Origin: Flavobacteriaceae bacterium
GTDB lineage: Bacteria; Bacteroidota; Bacteroidia; Flavobacteriales; Flavobacteriaceae
Reading direction: 5' to 3'
DNA length: 37,333 nucleotides
NCBI GenBank assembly: GCA_002691645.1
Contig: NZIP01000058.1
Coordinates: 1-37,333, forward strand
Shown here: positions 13,461 to 25,599 of the stretch, in pieces
Numbering within the stretch: the stretch's first letter is position 1
How the letters are laid out: each line of letters starts with the position of its first letter
Translations under genes and position numbers: made by a program
Notes under the pieces: generated by a model
Database searches by the model: none
Told to the model about the DNA's origin: nothing
The model's input: only the letters and a program-made list of their open reading frames with translations

Positions 13461-14411
13461 ATGAGTGAACTCAAGATTGCAATGGCGCAGTTGGCACCGG
13501 TTTGGTTGAACAAGAGTCAGACCATTGAAAAAGCAGAACAGGCGATACGCGAGGCTGCACAAGAAAAAGCGGATTTGATTGTGTTTGGCGAGGGTTTTCT
13601 TCCTGGATATCCCTTTTGGTTGGCCCTTAGCGATGGGGCAAAGTGGGAACTACCAATTAACAAATCACTCTACGCTCACTATGCGATGAACGCTATTCAA
13701 ATTGAAAGTGGAGATCTCAAGAACATTTGTCTTTTGGCTAAAGAGCTTAAAATTGCCGTGTATTTAGGTATTATTGAACGAGCTGCTGACAGAGGAGGGC
13801 ACAGCCTTTACTGTTCCTTGGTTTACATTGACCAAAAAGGAGAAACACAATCCGTCCATAGAAAATTGCAACCTACCTATGATGAGCGATTGACTTGGTC
13901 CCCAGGCGACGGAAACGGATTACGGGTTCACAATTTAAATGGCTTTACCCTTGGTGGACTCAATTGCTGGGAAAATTGGATGCCTCTTCCACGGGCAGCA
14001 CTTTATGCACAGGGAGAAAACCTGCATATTGCAGTATGGCCAGGAGGACTGCACAACACCAAAGACATCACGCGTTTTATCGCAAGAGAGTCGAGGTCTT
14101 ATGTGGTTTCGGTATCAAGCTTAATGCGCAAAGAAGACTTTCCTAAAGACACCCCTTATTACGATAACTTAATGGACAAGGCCCCTGCTATTTTAGCCGA
14201 TGGAGGCTCTGCAATTGCAGGCCCAAACGGAGAATGGTTGGTTGAGCCGGTAGTTCACAAAGAAGGATTAATTTACAGCGAAGTTGAATTGAAAAGAGTC
14301 TTTGAAGAACGACAAAACTTTGATCCTGTAGGACATTATTCGAGACCAGACGTTACAAAACTTACCTTGAATACTGAAAGACAAAATACATTAAACATCA
14401 AAAACCAATAA
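13461..14411 (+). CDS. Nitrilase-branch carbon-nitrogen hydrolase
   Basis: A 316-residue cytoplasmic enzyme of the nitrilase superfamily. The Glu-Lys-Cys triad is intact: E44 in FGEGFLPGYPFW, K135 in HRKLQPTYDERLTW and C169 in GLNCWENWMPLPR. The R-K-L-x-P-T-x-x-E-R-L and C-W-E-x-W-x-P-L motifs point to branch 1, true nitrilases converting nitriles to carboxylic acids and ammonia, rather than amidase or carbamylase branches. Length is typical. The lipoprotein RidA gene starts 12 bases downstream, so the two form an operon. Natural substrates could be aliphatic or arylaceto-nitriles, possibly plant- or alga-derived, but the sequence does not decide. Confidence 0.9.
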   Translation: MSELKIAMAQLAPVWLNKSQTIEKAEQAIREAAQEKADLIVFGEGFLPGYPFWLALSDGAKWELPINKSLYAHYAMNAIQIESGDLKNICLLAKELKIAVYLGIIERAADRGGHSLYCSLVYIDQKGETQSVHRKLQPTYDERLTWSPGDGNGLRVHNLNGFTLGGLNCWENWMPLPRAALYAQGENLHIAVWPGGLHNTKDITRFIARESRSYVVSVSSLMRKEDFPKDTPYYDNLMDKAPAILADGGSAIAGPNGEWLVEPVVHKEGLIYSEVELKRVFEERQNFDPVGHYSRPDVTKLTLNTERQNTLNIKNQ

Positions 14412-14423
14412 ATCAAAACACGT

Positions 14424-14972
14424 ATGAGAAATTTTATCTTGGCAGGACTCCTTATTTTGAGTTCATGCATGAGCAAAGAAATAGAAGCGGTTACATTTGA
14501 AAACACAGAAACTCCCGAAATGCGATTAGCTGCTATGGGTATTGATTTGCCCGAGCCATCCTCACCTGTGGCGAACTATGTCAGTGTGGTTCAAACAGGC
14601 AATTTGTTGTTTTTGTCTGGAACTGGACCAAAGCAAACTGACGGCTCTTACATTCAAGGCAAGGTAGGAGAAGACCTCAGCTTAGAAGAGGGATATCAGG
14701 CCGCTCGCCTTACAGGAATTAACCATTTGGCGCTTTTAAAAAATGAACTAGGCGATCTTAGCAGAGTAAAGCGAATTGTCAAGGTACTGGGAATGGTAAA
14801 TTGTACCCCAGAATTTCAAGATCAGCCCAAGGTCATCAACGGATTTTCTGACTTGATGGTTGAGGTTTTTCAAGAAAAAGGCAAGCATGCAAGATCAGCC
14901 GTTGGCATGAATTCTCTGCCGATAGGGATCGCTGTTGAAGTTGAAATGATTGTCGAAATCGCTCCTGAATAA
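14424..14972 (+). CDS. RidA-family protein carrying a lipoprotein signal
   Basis: A 182-residue protein: MRNFILAGLLILSSC is a lipoprotein signal with the lipobox L-S-S-C at C15, then a linker of about 20 residues and a RidA/YjgF/UK114 domain (about 40-182). Domain marks include LLFLSGTGP (residues 53-61) and KHARSAVGM, whose Arg aligns with the imine-contacting Arg of RidA proteins. RidA members hydrolyse enamines and imines such as 2-aminoacrylate and are normally cytosolic, so the lipid anchor is unusual. It is a paralogue of the cytosolic protein at 17446-17922, sharing KVLGM, T-P-x-F, N-G-F-S-x-L and ARSAVGM. The gene follows the nitrilase gene by 12 bases. Activity in the envelope is inference. 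Confidence 0.88.
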   Translation: MRNFILAGLLILSSCMSKEIEAVTFENTETPEMRLAAMGIDLPEPSSPVANYVSVVQTGNLLFLSGTGPKQTDGSYIQGKVGEDLSLEEGYQAARLTGINHLALLKNELGDLSRVKRIVKVLGMVNCTPEFQDQPKVINGFSDLMVEVFQEKGKHARSAVGMNSLPIGIAVEVEMIVEIAPE

Positions 14973-15276: not shown

Positions 15277-16341
15277 TTAAGGCAAATGCGTACTTAAAAA
15301 ACGAAGCGCATTTTTGTAGAGAATATTGTCAATGTCTGAGGGACTATATCCTTTTTGACTTAGAAGATCGTCTAGTTTTTGCAAATCGGCAATCGTTTCT
15401 AAATCATAAGGGCATTGTTCTTTTCCAAAACCACCGTCTAAATCAGAGCCAAGCATCAGGTGTTCGCTACTGCCGGTCAATTGACAGATGTGATCGATAT
15501 GGGCGATGATGGTTTCTATTTTAAGCCCTGAGGCTTCAGGGGTTGTTACTCCTCGCTTCCAATCAGGAATCATCATCCAAGCATCGAAGGCCATGCCAAT
15601 AATGCCTTCTCTTGCGACTATTGCTTTGATTTGTTCATCGCTGAATTGTCGGTGATTAGGAACAAGCGTTCTACAATTTGAATGACTTGCCCAGAGGGGT
15701 CCGTCATAACAATCTAAGGTCTCCCAAAAACTCTCATCACATAGATGCGTGAGGTCTAAGATGAGGCCTAGCTCTTCTACTTTTTTTACCAAATCTTTGC
15801 CTTTTTGTCCAATTCCTCCCTCTGAATCTGTACCATGTGCATAGGTTCCAGGTCCATAGTGCGCAGCTCCTATAGCACGTAAACCTTCTTCGTACATCAG
15901 CTCTAGATGTTCTAAGCTTACAATTGAATCTGCGCCCTCGAGACTCAATATATAGCCCAATGGCATTTCTTTTTCTTGTTGCCAGTTTTCAAAGTGCTGA
16001 TTTAATGCTGCAGCTGATTTAAGCTGAGCTAGAGAACCGTTTTTTTCCATTGCCCTATACCAAGCGAGTTGGGCCTGAGTTTGCGCCCAGGCTTGTTCGG
16101 GAGAGTTCCATCCCGGAAGCGGATTGTTTGGCTTAACGTAGCGAGCAATTAATGTTGCAACGCAAATGCCGATGTTTCCTTTTCTCATCGCCGGAAATGA
16201 AACTGTATTCTTTTCGCGATCTGGAAAATCCTTTAATCCGGCTTCACTTTTACGGATGTATGAAACCTCATGTCTCAGGTCACGATTCCATTCCATGGCA
16301 TTCATAGAAAGATCTAAATGGGCGTCAATAATAAACTTCAT
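15277..16341 (-). CDS. M19 membrane-dipeptidase-family dipeptidase
   Basis: A 354-residue zinc dipeptidase of the renal-dipeptidase (M19) family. Metal ligands are in place: H8 and D10 in DAHLD, E135 in SLEGAD, H199 in LDLTHL and H220 in WASHSN; GSDLDGGFG supplies the conserved substrate-side Asp. There is no signal peptide, so it acts in the cytosol. M19 enzymes accept dipeptides whose C-terminal residue has the D configuration, which fits the neighbouring D-amino-acid-type PLP enzyme. Its ATG overlaps the TGA of that gene by 4 bases (ATGA), so translation is probably coupled. Confidence 0.92.
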   Translation of the reverse strand: MKFIIDAHLDLSMNAMEWNRDLRHEVSYIRKSEAGLKDFPDREKNTVSFPAMRKGNIGICVATLIARYVKPNNPLPGWNSPEQAWAQTQAQLAWYRAMEKNGSLAQLKSAAALNQHFENWQQEKEMPLGYILSLEGADSIVSLEHLELMYEEGLRAIGAAHYGPGTYAHGTDSEGGIGQKGKDLVKKVEELGLILDLTHLCDESFWETLDCYDGPLWASHSNCRTLVPNHRQFSDEQIKAIVAREGIIGMAFDAWMMIPDWKRGVTTPEASGLKIETIIAHIDHICQLTGSSEHLMLGSDLDGGFGKEQCPYDLETIADLQKLDDLLSQKGYSPSDIDNILYKNALRFLSTHLP

Positions 16342-17444
16342 AGAGGAGGGTGAATTAAGTAATCTCTTGCCTCAATCGGCCAGACTTCTTTGATCTCATG
16401 CTCGCTACAAACATATGCCGCATTGTATTTGGCAACAGTTGGACAGATGTGAACGGGAATCGCATAGTACAAATCACCCACTTTACAATCTATGGGAGAT
16501 GCTGTTTTTAGGATGAGGTGTTCTTCACTTTGCCCGATGTGCTGTGCATTTTCAAATCCAATGATTGAAACCCTCGGCATGGGCATTTCAGAGGCAAGTG
16601 CCTTATGGCCTAAGTCAAAACAATAAATGGATGGCGCTGGCTTGCTGATTAAACGCGTCAAAATAAGGGCAGCCTGTTTAAAAGGAGATTCGGCCCATAT
16701 CTTTTGATAGCCCAAATCCCATAATAAGGTGGTTCCAGGACTTAAATAATTATCCTGTCTTAAAGCGTGAGGCAAAAAACTTGGAGAGCCACCGGTAATG
16801 AGTTTGACTGCCTGCTGTTCTTCATTTTCTATTCTAGCAATCAGGGCTTCAACCGATTTAAAGTGGCCTTGACAGTTTGCAATGCGCTGATTTAAATCGT
16901 GGTCACGGATGTGTCCGTCGTAGATGTGAAGCCCGGCAAAAGTCAAGTTAGGTGAAGATTTGATTTTTGAGTATAACTCAAAGGCTTCTTCTGGCACTAT
17001 TCCACTTCTGTTCATGCCATTGTTGATGTCAATCCAAAGTGATAATTTCAGTTGATGTTCATGTGACAATTGTTCAAAAAGAGCAAGACTGTCTGAATTA
17101 TCACAAAGGGTTGAAAACTCGGTAGACGAAAACTTTTTTTGAGCGCTCAAAAGTGTTTTTATTTTTTCTGTACTCGGCTGATGGGCCAAGAGAATCTTAT
17201 CGACACCTTCTCTGGCGAGCAGTAGCATTTCTGAGGTTGTGGCACACTTGAATTTAGTGATGCCCTGCTTTTTTTGGAGGGCGATTATCGCCCCCATTTT
17301 ATGGGTTTTGACATGAGGCCAAAGTCGGTCTGCACTTCCAGCTATGTTGAGCATCTCTTGAATGTTGTGCTCAACACGCTCTGGATAAACCACAAGAGCT
17401 GGGCTAGAGAGCTCTTCACTATGCTTAATTTGGTACCACTCCAT
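16338..17444 (-). CDS. D-threonine aldolase/D-serine dehydratase-like PLP enzyme
   Basis: A 368-residue fold-type III PLP enzyme of the alanine-racemase-like family. I use the ATG at 17444 because it lies directly behind the stop of the RidA gene; the frame also opens at a TTG at 17462. PALVVYPERVEHNI (15-28) begins the TIM barrel and WPHVKTHK (42-49) contains the PLP lysine, K46. The C-terminal metal site reads PVHICPT: a His-x-Cys pair is the zinc ligand set known from eukaryotic D-serine dehydratase, while characterised D-threonine aldolase has His-x-Asp. That favours D-serine dehydration, giving 2-aminoacrylate and then pyruvate and ammonia, but is not proof. RidA, just upstream, would deaminate 2-aminoacrylate. 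Confidence 0.88.
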   Translation of the reverse strand: MEWYQIKHSEELSSPALVVYPERVEHNIQEMLNIAGSADRLWPHVKTHKMGAIIALQKKQGITKFKCATTSEMLLLAREGVDKILLAHQPSTEKIKTLLSAQKKFSSTEFSTLCDNSDSLALFEQLSHEHQLKLSLWIDINNGMNRSGIVPEEAFELYSKIKSSPNLTFAGLHIYDGHIRDHDLNQRIANCQGHFKSVEALIARIENEEQQAVKLITGGSPSFLPHALRQDNYLSPGTTLLWDLGYQKIWAESPFKQAALILTRLISKPAPSIYCFDLGHKALASEMPMPRVSIIGFENAQHIGQSEEHLILKTASPIDCKVGDLYYAIPVHICPTVAKYNAAYVCSEHEIKEVWPIEARDYLIHPPL

Positions 17445-17445
17445 T

Positions 17446-17922
17446 TCAGTGTTCAATTTCAAAAATGGCTTCTACTTCTGCGGTGATATTTTGAGGAAGC
17501 ATCATGCCAACAGCACTGCGAGCACCGATTCCGCTTTCAGTTCCAAAGACTTCTGCGAGCAATTCGCTAAAGCCATTAACGGCATAGGTATGTTCATTGA
17601 AATCTGGGGTTGAATTGATCATTCCCAGCACTTTGACAACCTTTGTTATACGAATACCGGGGTCTAAATAGGTCACCAGAGTAGACAACATGGTAAGGCC
17701 TACTTGACGAGCCGCTTCTTTGGCCCCATCTTTATCTAAATCTGAGCCGGCTTTTCCTTTGATGAGTTCAGAAGAACTGAGAACTGGCCCATGCCCTGAG
17801 ACGTATAAATGGTTGCCTGAAATGGCAAATGGCTTATATACTCCAAGAGGTTTAGGAGCTGGAGGTAAACTGAGACCTAAACTTTTTATTCGACTGCTGA
17901 GTTCAATTGCATTCATGCCCAT
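17446..17922 (-). CDS. RidA-family protein, cytosolic
   Basis: A 158-residue RidA/YjgF/UK114 protein without a signal peptide. Features are HLYVSGHGP (residues 38-46), KVVKVLGMINSTPDF and GARSAVGM, whose Arg corresponds to the substrate-binding Arg of imine deaminases. It belongs to the longer RidA subgroup of about 150-160 residues. It is the first gene of a minus-strand operon (RidA, PLP enzyme, M19 dipeptidase), with the PLP gene starting one base after its stop. The expected role is hydrolysis of the reactive enamine or imine released by the PLP enzyme. An ATG two codons later (17916) is an alternative start. Confidence 0.9.
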   Translation of the reverse strand: MGMNAIELSSRIKSLGLSLPPAPKPLGVYKPFAISGNHLYVSGHGPVLSSSELIKGKAGSDLDKDGAKEAARQVGLTMLSTLVTYLDPGIRITKVVKVLGMINSTPDFNEHTYAVNGFSELLAEVFGTESGIGARSAVGMMLPQNITAEVEAIFEIEH

Positions 17923-17997: not shown

Positions 17998-19497
17998 ATG
18001 AGAATCTTTTTATTTTTTTCGCTTTTACTGCTTTTCACCTTTGGATGTCAACCTACTTCAAAAGAGACTTCTCCAAACATTCTGGTGATTTATATGGATG
18101 ATTTAGGATTTGGAGACGTGGGCTTTAACGGAGGAAAGGCGATCAGCACACCAAATATGGACCGCTTGGCCAATGAGGGCTTGAACTTTGTCAATGCGTA
18201 TTCGAGTTCGGCAACCTGTACGCCAAGTCGATATGCCTTACTCACAGGAGTTTATCCTTGGAGAGAAAAGCGTGCGCGAATTTTGCCGGGCACTGCTACC
18301 CTCATAATTGATACAGCTCAGGCCACCCTGCCAAGAATGCTGCAATCTAAAGGTTATTATACGGCTATAATTGGGAAATGGCATTTAGGTTTAGGTGATG
18401 GAGATGTGAATTGGAACGAGACCATATCGCCAGGGCCAAATGAGTTGGGGTTTGACTATTCTTATATTTTAGCTGCTACGCAGGATAGAGTTCCAACCGT
18501 CTATATCGAAGACGGCAATGTGGTTGGCCTCGAAGAAGACGACCCCATAGAAGTGGATTATAAAACGAATTTTGAAGGGGTGCCAACGGCTTTGACACAT
18601 CCCGAACTTTTAGAAGTCATGTGGGATCACGGGCACAACAACAGCATTGTCAATGGTATTCCTCGAATTGGGTTTATGAAAGGCGGAAAAAACGCTTTAT
18701 GGAGCGATATCGATATGGCCGATGCATTTTTAGATCAGGCCAAAAGCTTTATCACAGCCCATTCAAAGGAGCCCTTTTTCTTGTTCTATCCTATGCAACA
18801 ACCACATGTTCCAAGAACGCCTCACCCTAGATTTGTTGGAGCTACAGACCTTGGTCCGAGAGGTGACGTCATTGCTGAAGCCGATTGGGTTATTGGAGAA
18901 TTACTAGCACAATTAGAAACCGAAGGCATTTTAGAAAACACTCTTGTTATTTTCACAAGCGACAATGGGCCGGTTTTAAATGACGGATATGTAGATCAAG
19001 CTGTCGAACGCAATGGCGATCACACACCATGGGGGCCGCTAAGAGGAGGTAAATACAGTCTTTTTGACGCGGGTACTCATGTACCATTTGTAGCTTACTG
19101 GAAAGGAAAGATCCAAACCGGAACTTCAGGCTCACTTATTAGTCAACTCGATTTGTTTTCTTCTTTGGCCGCGATAGTCAATAGCGAAGAACGCACTGCT
19201 GACAGTCATGATTTGCATCAAACCCTATTGGGTCGATCACAGGCGGGGCGTAGGGATTTAATTATCGAGGCTAGCGGTCGAACGGCACTGAGAACCGAAG
19301 ACTGGGTGTACATTCCTCCCTATACGGGTCGTCGTGCAGTGAGTCGTTTTACCAACATTGAACTCGGCAACAGTGAGACTCCTTTGTTGTACCATTTAAA
19401 AACAGATATAGGGCAACTGCAAAACTTAGCAACAGATAGCCTAAGTCAGCTGAAGTCAATGCAAAAGCAATACAAGACTATTTTAGGTGTCGAATAA
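17998..19497 (+). CDS. Cys-type sulfatase lipoprotein (S1 family)
   Basis: A 499-residue sulfatase that hydrolyses sulfate esters, probably on carbohydrates. It has a lipoprotein signal (C17 after LLLFTFG), then NILVIYMDDLGFGDVG with the calcium ligands D34 and D35, and CTPSR with C74, the residue converted to formylglycine. KWHLG and TSDNGP further on complete the S1 active site. No formylglycine-generating enzyme or anSME gene lies in the window, so maturation depends on a distant gene. The fucosidase and rhamnosidase nearby suggest a sulfated glycan, but regiospecificity cannot be read off. Confidence 0.94.
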   Translation: MRIFLFFSLLLLFTFGCQPTSKETSPNILVIYMDDLGFGDVGFNGGKAISTPNMDRLANEGLNFVNAYSSSATCTPSRYALLTGVYPWREKRARILPGTATLIIDTAQATLPRMLQSKGYYTAIIGKWHLGLGDGDVNWNETISPGPNELGFDYSYILAATQDRVPTVYIEDGNVVGLEEDDPIEVDYKTNFEGVPTALTHPELLEVMWDHGHNNSIVNGIPRIGFMKGGKNALWSDIDMADAFLDQAKSFITAHSKEPFFLFYPMQQPHVPRTPHPRFVGATDLGPRGDVIAEADWVIGELLAQLETEGILENTLVIFTSDNGPVLNDGYVDQAVERNGDHTPWGPLRGGKYSLFDAGTHVPFVAYWKGKIQTGTSGSLISQLDLFSSLAAIVNSEERTADSHDLHQTLLGRSQAGRRDLIIEASGRTALRTEDWVYIPPYTGRRAVSRFTNIELGNSETPLLYHLKTDIGQLQNLATDSLSQLKSMQKQYKTILGVE

Positions 19498-24282: not shown

Positions 24283-25599
24283 ATGTCGTTAGTTGTAGTT
24301 GGAATTGGTATTCTTGCGTTGTTTCTGCTTGTAGCAGTTATAAGATTAAACACCTTTATCTCTTTTATTCTGGTCGCCTTAGGGATTGGAATCTTTCAAG
24401 GAATGCCCTTAGATCAGTTGGTTGGATCTCTAGAAAAAGGAATCGGAAATATTCTTGGTTTCTTGGTTATGATTTTAGGCTTTGGTGCAATGCTCGGCAA
24501 ACTTGTCGCAGAAAGTGGAGCGGCCCAGCGAATTACCGAAGGTCTGGTCGCTTATTTTGGTGTAAAAAATACGAAAATAGCGGTCATGCTTACAGGCTTT
24601 TTAGTGGGTATTACACTCTTTTATTCTGTAGGCTTTGTCATTTTAGTGCCCTTGGTATTCACAGTTGCAGCTTCAACAGGACTGCCTTTGATTCAGGTTG
24701 CCCTACCCATGCTTGCCTCTCTATCGGTTACCCACGGATTTTTACCGCCACACCCTGCGCCATCAGCCTTATCTGTGATGTTTGAAGCAGATTTGGGTAA
24801 AACTTTGTTGTATGGATTTATTGTTTCTATTCCGGCAATACTGATTTCAGGACCAGTATTGGTCCGTTTTTTACCAATGGTTCAGGCCAGACCAATTAAA
24901 GAATTTCAAGCGAGTCGCGTCTTTACCAAAGAAGAAATGCCAAGCTTAGGTATAAGTTTGTTCACCACCTTACTGCCAGTGCTCATTATTGGAATAGCCA
25001 CTGTACTTATAGAGTTAAATACCTTGTCAGCCCAAACCACAACTGTTGTTGAATTTATAGGTAACCCTGTTATCGCCTTATTAATTACAGTATTATTCGC
25101 CGCTTACGTCTTGGGAATTCGCAGAGGTAAAAGCGTCAAAGAGGTAATGGATATTTATGCCAATTCAATTAAGGGAATTACAATGGTGTTGCTCATTATA
25201 GCTGGCTCAGGAGCTTTAAAACAAATCTTAGTCGACAGTGGAGTCAGTCAAGAAATTGGTGTGATGTTAGAGGGCATCAGTATATCTCCACTTATTATTG
25301 CCTGGTTTATCGCTACTGTTATTCGATTTACAGTGGGTTCTGCTACTGTGGCAGGGCTTACGGCAGCGGGTATTGTGCTCCCACTGGTCAGTGCTACTGA
25401 TGTGAGCCCAGAACTTATGGTCTTGGCAATTGGTTCTGGTAGTTTGATGCTGTCTCATTTGAACGATTCAGGCTTTTGGTTGTTCAAGGAGTATTTTAAT
25501 CTTACAATAAAAGAAACGCTATCCACCTGGACGGTGATGGAAACCAGCATTGGAATTTCTGGTTTATTGGGTGTCTTAGCGCTTAACCAATTGATTTGA
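24283..25599 (+). CDS. GntP-family permease (gluconate/D-serine/hydroxyacid type)
   Basis: A 438-residue polytopic protein with about 12 hydrophobic segments. The family stretch G-F-G-A-M-L-G-K-L-V-x-E-S-G-A-A-Q-R-I-T (about 65-85), followed by THGFLPPHPAP (150-160) and LSHLNDSGFWLFKEYF, identifies the gluconate:H+ symporter (GntP) family. Members import gluconate and related acids, and E. coli DsdX, a member, imports D-serine. Here it is co-transcribed with a secreted peptidase, and no gluconate kinase lies nearby, so an amino-acid-like substrate is as likely as a sugar acid. It converges with the GNAT gene, overlapping its last 17 bases. Confidence 0.93.
   Translation: MSLVVVGIGILALFLLVAVIRLNTFISFILVALGIGIFQGMPLDQLVGSLEKGIGNILGFLVMILGFGAMLGKLVAESGAAQRITEGLVAYFGVKNTKIAVMLTGFLVGITLFYSVGFVILVPLVFTVAASTGLPLIQVALPMLASLSVTHGFLPPHPAPSALSVMFEADLGKTLLYGFIVSIPAILISGPVLVRFLPMVQARPIKEFQASRVFTKEEMPSLGISLFTTLLPVLIIGIATVLIELNTLSAQTTTVVEFIGNPVIALLITVLFAAYVLGIRRGKSVKEVMDIYANSIKGITMVLLIIAGSGALKQILVDSGVSQEIGVMLEGISISPLIIAWFIATVIRFTVGSATVAGLTAAGIVLPLVSATDVSPELMVLAIGSGSLMLSHLNDSGFWLFKEYFNLTIKETLSTWTVMETSIGISGLLGVLALNQLI

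Follow-up and report, generated by a model that had tools for sequence, protein, structure and literature searches.

A conserved Rid1, PLP enzyme and M19 gene unit in Bacteroidota and its possible role in D-glucosaminate catabolism

A stretch of 37,333 nucleotides from a Flavobacteriaceae bacterium (contig NZIP01000058.1 of assembly GCA_002691645.1; hereafter the window, meaning the whole stretch analysed) carries a compact unit of three genes, arranged head-to-tail and tightly packed on the minus strand. The first encodes a predicted Rid1-like imine deaminase of 158 aa (17446..17922; PF14588 at 50 bits, cut-off 35). The second encodes a fold-type III enzyme of 368 aa that uses pyridoxal phosphate (PLP) and is predicted to be a beta-hydroxy-D-amino-acid dehydratase/ammonia-lyase (16338..17444; PF01168 at 80 bits, PF14031 at 55 bits), and the third a predicted metallo-amidase of the M19, or renal-dipeptidase, type (15277..16341; 354 aa; PF01244 at 176 bits, cut-off 26). 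The original prediction had described a D-amino-acid salvage unit in which RidA removes the 2-aminoacrylate made by a D-serine dehydratase-like enzyme, and the open reading frame (ORF) coordinates bear out the tight spacing on which it drew. The ATG of the PLP gene lies at 17444, one base past the Rid stop codon, while an in-frame TTG at 17462 would overlap the Rid gene; the M19 ORF overlaps the PLP gene by four bases. On one side it is flanked by a divergently oriented gene at 17998, read by eye as a sulfatase, and on the other by a second Rid gene that runs toward it and ends at 14972. A 438-aa symporter of the GntP family is encoded about 6.4 kb away on the opposite, plus strand, behind an S9 peptidase gene (24283..25599; TIGR00791 at 529 bits, cut-off 293).

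Conservation of the unit was followed at two scales. The family survey covered 299 Flavobacteriaceae genomes, searched for homologues of the three proteins; with the cut-offs applied, 62 of them gave the PLP gene, 80 a Rid homologue and 46 an M19 homologue, and the PLP gene is missing from both of the remaining genomes assigned to the window's genus. The 62 genomes gave 66 PLP matches, of which 41 are flanked by both partners, 7 by Rid alone, 5 by M19 alone and 13 by neither, counting Rid within 1.5 kb and M19 within 4 kb among the best 50 Rid matches and all M19 matches listed. The neighbourhood set comprised 60 family, 80 named and 20 phylum loci, 160 altogether, reduced to 149 once 11 loci with duplicate PLP genes were dropped. 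The named loci are the best 80 of 589 confirmed and are thus skewed toward close relatives, and the phylum loci come from a draw of 296 genomes, 30 with the PLP gene (20 fetched, 4 already included, 6 unfetched).

Rid1 lies immediately upstream of the PLP gene in 113 of the 149 loci (42/60 family, 60/69 named and 11/20 phylum loci), and canonical RidA takes that place in four. M19 follows immediately downstream in 103 loci and GntP lies upstream in 105; Rid1 upstream and M19 downstream are found together in 93, and all four genes in 80. Median gaps, measured from simple ORF calls, are 7 nt between Rid1 and PLP and 9 nt between PLP and M19. The four-gene order spans Flavobacteriaceae, Cytophagales and Bacteroidales. 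Among named organisms, the unit is carried by Maribacter, Arenibacter, Eudoraea, Aquimarina, Galbibacter, Joostella and Dyadobacter, among others. The Rid-PLP-dipeptidase order is kept in records of Hymenobacter and Parabacteroides that are labelled as plasmids, and in four Opitutales loci (L106, L131, L123 and L135) the genes are adjacent but rearranged. Such a gene order is not chance, and the pairing of Rid1, PLP enzyme and M19 is more general than could be seen from a single locus; the order proposed from the window alone is conserved in relatives.

These fractions would be slightly lower with the unfetched rows included. Five of the six unfetched phylum loci (L177, L196, L198, L199, L200 and L203) show no partner adjoining the PLP gene, and in one the PLP gene is uncalled. 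Six family rows were likewise left without a fetched neighbourhood: the window's own, G212:C13 (where M19 lies 2.4 kb off), two partnerless G221 fragments and two G113 pieces with Rid and M19 adjoining. No Rid of either kind was called in 22 of the 149 loci, of which at least two are artefacts: L039, and L068, whose Rid appears in the Rid search. An apparent Rid1-PLP fusion in L039 was rejected because the joined ORF of 524 aa exists only through an N in the Rid1 stop codon (TAN). Decay or sequencing error may account for an apparent M19 remnant with internal stops (G270:C1:324858-325091) and for a PLP gene split across two frames (G113:C1:978357-979435).

The window's symporter shares 71, 72 and 66% identity with the copies that stand in the operon in three other genomes (G137, G178 and G290), and by this measure it is orthologous to a fourth gene of the operon, which the original prediction had missed. 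Against equivalog models it scores 520 of the 744 bits required for the gluconate transporter and 272 of 618 for DsdX (NF007395); since no equivalog cut-off is passed, these scores lean toward gluconate rather than prove it. In one locus (L038), a DASS-type anion symporter stands in GntP's place.

The Rid protein was taken at first for RidA, a label that does not hold: it scores 23.2 bits against TIGR00004, whose cut-off is 106.25. The nearest Rid-named PDB chains, after two uncharacterised ones, are PA0814 (51 bits) and ACIAD3089 (43 bits), both of which have been placed in Rid1 (PMC5619798). As judged from these relationships, the operon protein is Rid1-like and not archetypal RidA. Its presumed catalytic residue, Arg135 (about 17518-17520), corresponds by motif to Arg105 of RidA and is kept in all 124 aligned Rid sequences, an arginine that is common to RidA, Rid2 and Rid3 as well. 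Six proteins spanning Rid1-3 are reported to deaminate imines in vitro (PMC5619798). In the four loci where a canonical 130-aa RidA precedes the PLP gene, the PLP sequences group together in a quickly built tree as a single clade, so that the swap of RidA for Rid1 was probably a single replacement. Because canonical RidA can stand in this position, the unit appears to need a Rid function rather than a particular Rid protein.

The PLP enzyme carries the two motifs first noticed in it: the lysine of WPHVKTHK (Lys46, about 17307-17309) and the His-x-Cys of PVHICPT (His332/Cys334, about 16443-16451), the putative metal pair. Both are invariant in 61 aligned sequences (window included), as are an arginine and a tyrosine. 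His-x-Cys is the metal pair of chicken D-serine dehydratase and of 3LLX, whereas D-threonine aldolase has His-x-Asp and uses His193 as catalytic base (PMC4401734). Cysteine replaces the aspartate of the aldolase pair in 61 of 61 sequences, in line with the dehydratase-type assignment made originally; the column aligned to His193, in a less certain part of the alignment, holds Asp in the window and His in 6 of the 61. The AlphaFold2 model (mean predicted local distance difference test score 93) has the fold of the D-serine dehydratase/D-threonine aldolase type, and Foldseek does not separate dehydratases from aldolases (E of 1.9e-27 for BhcC, 5.7e-27 for D-threonine aldolase and 3.4e-26 for D-serine dehydratase). 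The phmmer scores are 84, 77 and 67 bits in the same order, and by both measures the aldolases are, if anything, nearer. An aldolase reading is disfavoured by His-x-Cys even though the nearest solved structures are aldolases; it is a single motif, though a well-understood one, that speaks for beta-elimination rather than aldol cleavage. A BhcC of the beta-hydroxyaspartate cycle was considered and rejected on both score (NF045642, 101.7 of 690 bits) and metal motif; one BhcC and one DSD1-type sequence from plasmids carry His-x-Asp, with HCD in the BhcC, which is from Leisingera. Since the Rid arginine and the PLP His-x-Cys are invariant in the aligned sets, the sequences fit well with a PLP eliminase whose imine is cleared by Rid1.

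In the M19 protein, eight or nine presumed active-site residues are kept in 108 or 109 of 109 aligned sequences; their roles, as metal ligands and in carboxylate binding, are assumed here by analogy with the human renal enzyme. Because these residues are intact, M19 is probably an active amidase, and both dipeptides and N-acyl sugar acids would fit as its substrates. Renal dehydropeptidase I has dehydropeptidase activity, and one may ask whether the imine met by Rid1 is produced by M19, acting on dehydroamino-acid peptides, rather than by the PLP enzyme. The presumed active site, being intact, would allow this, and in one contig (G217:C2) Rid1 and M19 matches are adjacent with no PLP match between them; yet 18 of the 149 loci have Rid1 directly before the PLP gene and lack any M19 within 3 kb, and we regard such an origin as very improbable.

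In relatives, genes of 2-keto-3-deoxygluconate (KDG) metabolism join the operon. Within seven genes of it, a 2-keto-3-deoxy-6-phosphogluconate (KDPG) aldolase gene is found in 10 of the 149 loci and a KDG-kinase-like gene in 9. They stand between Rid1 and PLP in four loci of one genus, g127, which may be Flavobacterium (L210, L212, L213 and L216). In the Aquimarina locus L159 they follow M19, as the aldolase does by itself in L072, whereas L073, L140 and L160 have them ahead of GntP and L037 has them divergent from it. A GH20 gene lies near the operon in seven loci of one genus (g127 where known) and in L109, Pfam having been run on L210 and L109. L210 also has a DeoR-type regulator, and a SusC/SusD-like pair, recognised by eye, precedes GntP in L210 and L212; in the Aquimarina locus a gluconolactonase-like gene, a GH20 fragment and a GH18 gene are nearby, and a YdjC-family gene occurs in L036 and L037. 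A pathway that ends in KDG would call for KDPG aldolase in the genomes with the operon, and at E 1e-10 it is present in 46 of 50 of them compared with 118 of the 249 others (Fisher p = 8e-10, genome size and lifestyle uncontrolled), an operon being defined here as a PLP gene with Rid1 and/or M19 near, variant architecture included. The window's genome (G000) holds two GH20 genes and, outside the window, a PfkB kinase gene adjoining a KDPG aldolase gene on the near-identical stretches C13 and C46, which are probably strain variants in the assembly.

Starting from the observed gene order, its conservation, the catalytic residues and the KDG genes that join the operon in relatives, we infer a substrate, an M19 step and a Rid1 substrate as follows. 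GntP would import a D-amino acid that resembles a hydroxy acid, with 2-amino-2-deoxy-D-gluconate (D-glucosaminate, GlcN1A) as the most likely one, and M19 would free the amine where the substrate arrives N-acylated. The PLP enzyme, with its metal on His332/Cys334, would eliminate the beta-hydroxyl to give the enamine/imine of KDG, which Rid1 would hydrolyse to KDG and ammonia before it could attack PLP enzymes; the KDG-kinase-like and KDPG-aldolase genes elsewhere in the genome would complete the route to pyruvate. With confidence that is evenly balanced, we propose that the three genes and the separate GntP form a Bacteroidota catabolic module, most likely for the conversion of D-glucosaminate to KDG and ammonia. 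This draws on the ong pathway, in which OngC, a fold-III PLP enzyme and distant relative of D-serine deaminases and D-threonine aldolases, is reported to turn 2-amino-2-deoxy-gluconate into KDG and ammonia (PMC9537276).

The salvage originally put forward keeps the three enzymes with another substrate, D-serine (or D-threonine): M19 would free D-serine from L-X-D-Ser dipeptides, the PLP enzyme would dehydrate it to 2-aminoacrylate, and Rid1 would hydrolyse that to pyruvate and ammonia; GntP would then be a DsdX-like importer of D-serine. Much of this is in keeping with the data, given that His-x-Cys is as in chicken D-serine dehydratase, that DsdX itself belongs to the GntP family, that the residues taken to bind a C-terminal carboxylate are kept in M19 and that Rid1-3 proteins act on imines in vitro. 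The coupling of an imine deaminase to a PLP enzyme and M19 as a conserved unit stands, but D-serine as the substrate is less supported, as the symporter leans to gluconate over DsdX models, short of any equivalog cut-off, and the KDG-type genes and chitin-type hydrolases nearby play no part in D-serine breakdown. Since the related OngC also accepts D-serine and D-threonine (PMC9537276), D-serine stays a candidate, although a rather unlikely one, and either of the two may be a side substrate.

Several observations weigh against D-glucosaminate as the dedicated substrate. KDG genes lie near the operon in just 10 of 149 loci, perhaps five or six lineages, and all three kinases scored fall under every NCBIfam cut-off, while two of three aldolases pass one. 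Four of the 50 operon genomes (G178, G182, G215 and G290) are without KDPG aldolase at the threshold used; G178 weighs most, being one of the genomes closest to that of the window and possessing the complete set of four genes. M19 is not immediately downstream in 46 of the 149 loci and is absent within 3 kb in 36 (one at a contig end), with no recurrent substitute noticed in the gene lists of the loci that lack it, and deacetylation of sugar acids is not, to our knowledge, an activity described for any M19 enzyme. A lytic polysaccharide monooxygenase (LPMO) of family AA10 (PF03067) was found in 5 of the 299 family genomes and in none of the 62 that bear the PLP gene. An LPMO of the cell's own as the source of oxidised sugar is therefore unsupported in the family sample; any glucosaminate used by the sampled operon genomes would need a different origin, such as other organisms or the oxidation of glucosamine. 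An LPMO has been reported for Aquimarina muelleri (PMC10535946), a species either outside the family sample or unrecognisable in it. The ong precedent itself is double-edged: OngC deaminates D-serine and D-threonine in addition to the sugar acid, and it yields KDG and ammonia in vitro without OngD (PMC9537276). The likeness to OngC, moreover, is one of published description and gene context. GntP together with kdgK and eda has been assigned to pectin (galacturonate) use in the marine flavobacterium Gramella flava (PMC5306329), and because these genes also serve hexuronate use, the KDG genes could be passengers of GntP. Finally, a sister architecture of RidA, PLP, class III aminotransferase, dehydrogenase and M19 genes has no KDG genes among its loci, for which reason the related enzymes probably have other substrates.

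Some of these points would also suit a broad clearance of beta-hydroxy D-amino acids, with no dedicated substrate, Rid1 as a generic guard and the KDG genes as passengers of a GntP that serves gluconate or hexuronate. The broad specificity reported for OngC and the pectin role of GntP, kdgK and eda in Gramella are consistent with it, as is the recurrence of RidA-PLP pairs among other neighbours (a D-glutamate cyclase in L239, RidA alone in L240, an aminotransferase and a dehydrogenase in L090). However, a transporter-Rid1-PLP-M19 operon that is stable across many genera suggests a defined substrate, and KDG genes also sit between Rid1 and PLP; we consider such general clearance distinctly improbable.

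The sister architecture combines canonical RidA, PLP and M19 genes in varied ways (L090, L091, L093 and, in part, L205, L211 and L223); in most cases genes for a class III aminotransferase and a 3-hydroxyacyl-CoA-dehydrogenase-like protein accompany them. In five of these loci (L090, L091, L093, L205 and L211), the cluster comprises an AraC-type regulator, canonical RidA, an aminotransferase resembling glutamate-1-semialdehyde aminomutase, the 3-hydroxyacyl-CoA-dehydrogenase-like protein, M19 and the PLP enzyme; L205 and L211 have an extra protein of 455-474 aa, ceramidase-like by eye. More distant PLP relatives adjoin RidA in Peptoclostridium and Paraburkholderia. The pairing of a Rid protein with a PLP enzyme is thus a wider theme, which probably serves several substrates. 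On a plasmid of Haladaptatus pallidirubidus (L237), the gene of an archaeal His-x-Cys relative adjoins one for a D-aminoacylase, and two genes upstream an SSS symporter is encoded, so that the arrangement recalls ong. A gene for an M81 (MlrC-like) metallopeptidase lies beside the operon in L036 and L037 and directly before a PLP gene of the D-threonine aldolase family in Rhizobium phaseoli (L243).

Around the operon, the window is rich in polysaccharide genes between 7974 and 30894, with a GH78 rhamnosidase, a GH29 fucosidase, GH30 and a sulfatase identified by Pfam, the gene at 17998 being a second sulfatase by eye. In the Galbibacter locus L102 a GH29 homologue separates GntP from Rid1, and in L082 one is found close to the PLP gene. 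Beyond the other edge of the operon, a nitrilase-family gene (nearest model Nit6803, 175 of 503 bits) and the second Rid gene together occupy window 13461-14972 on the plus strand. The second Rid-type protein (P0004) is encoded 12 bases past the nitrilase gene; it is 43% identical to the operon Rid1 and has a lipoprotein-like signal by eye. A secreted Rid protein would be unusual.

Taken further, the D-glucosaminate proposal describes a widespread Bacteroidota route in which GntP takes up (N-acyl-)D-glucosaminate left by the oxidation of chitin or peptidoglycan by others, M19 acts as a sugar-acid amidase and not as a dipeptidase, and Rid1 is a dedicated KDG-imine hydrolase. We offer this extended version tentatively, as possible but short of an even chance. 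If true, it would show what members of the Rid1 subfamily act on in vivo and why ong has an essential Rid protein, and a glucosaminate substrate would extend oxidised amino-sugar catabolism from Gammaproteobacteria to many Bacteroidota, including family genomes without an AA10 LPMO. Whichever substrate applies, the operon links a specific Rid1 to a specific PLP enzyme and to a transporter, and relatives supply genes for later steps, which makes the questions about Rid1-3 and OngD testable together. A search of open-licence papers did not find this operon described, which is weak evidence of absence.

Each component has better-known counterparts. The PLP enzyme has its fold, PLP lysine and His-x-Cys in common with chicken D-serine dehydratase (3anu) and with the D-threo-3-hydroxyaspartate dehydratase of Delftia (3wqc), for which the metal pair is read from the titles of the H351A and C353A mutant PDB entries; over the structural alignment it is about 24% and 18-19% identical to them, respectively, and it sits within a transporter/Rid/M19 operon. 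D-threonine aldolase (4v15) and the 3-hydroxy-D-aspartate aldolase BhcC (6qkb), the top-scoring solved structures, have the same fold, but the former differs in its metal pair and base. The Rid protein resembles the Rid1 members PA0814 and ACIAD3089 in length, conserved arginine and sequence relationship, and differs in having fixed PLP, GntP and M19 partners, where the in vivo substrates of Rid1-3 were described as unknown in 2015 (PMC4433059). The Dga pathway offers similar chemistry on a phosphorylated sugar acid; in a paper on it, its enamine is discussed as possibly cytotoxic and RidA is mentioned. It reportedly relies on another PLP fold and a substrate phosphorylated by the phosphotransferase system.

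The closest parallel, by analogy of gene content, is the ong pathway of Pseudoalteromonas prydzensis for oxidised chitin (GlcNAc1A), whose RidA-type protein OngD is essential for growth in a role unexplained as of 2022 (PMC9537276). According to that report, ong is found only in Gammaproteobacteria and one Betaproteobacterium. Unlike ong, the operon belongs to Bacteroidota, uses GntP instead of an SSS symporter, M19 instead of the D-aminoacylase OngB and a Rid1-like protein instead of a 127-aa RidA, and comes without an LPMO in the sampled operon genomes; an OngB-type D-aminoacylase and an SSS symporter are not in the operon, the whole genome not having been searched for them. What the two systems share is a Rid-family protein, a fold-III PLP deaminase (here predicted), an inner-membrane symporter and an amide hydrolase, and some relatives of the operon, like ong, add KDG-kinase-like, KDPG-aldolase and GH20 genes and a pair read as SusC/SusD.

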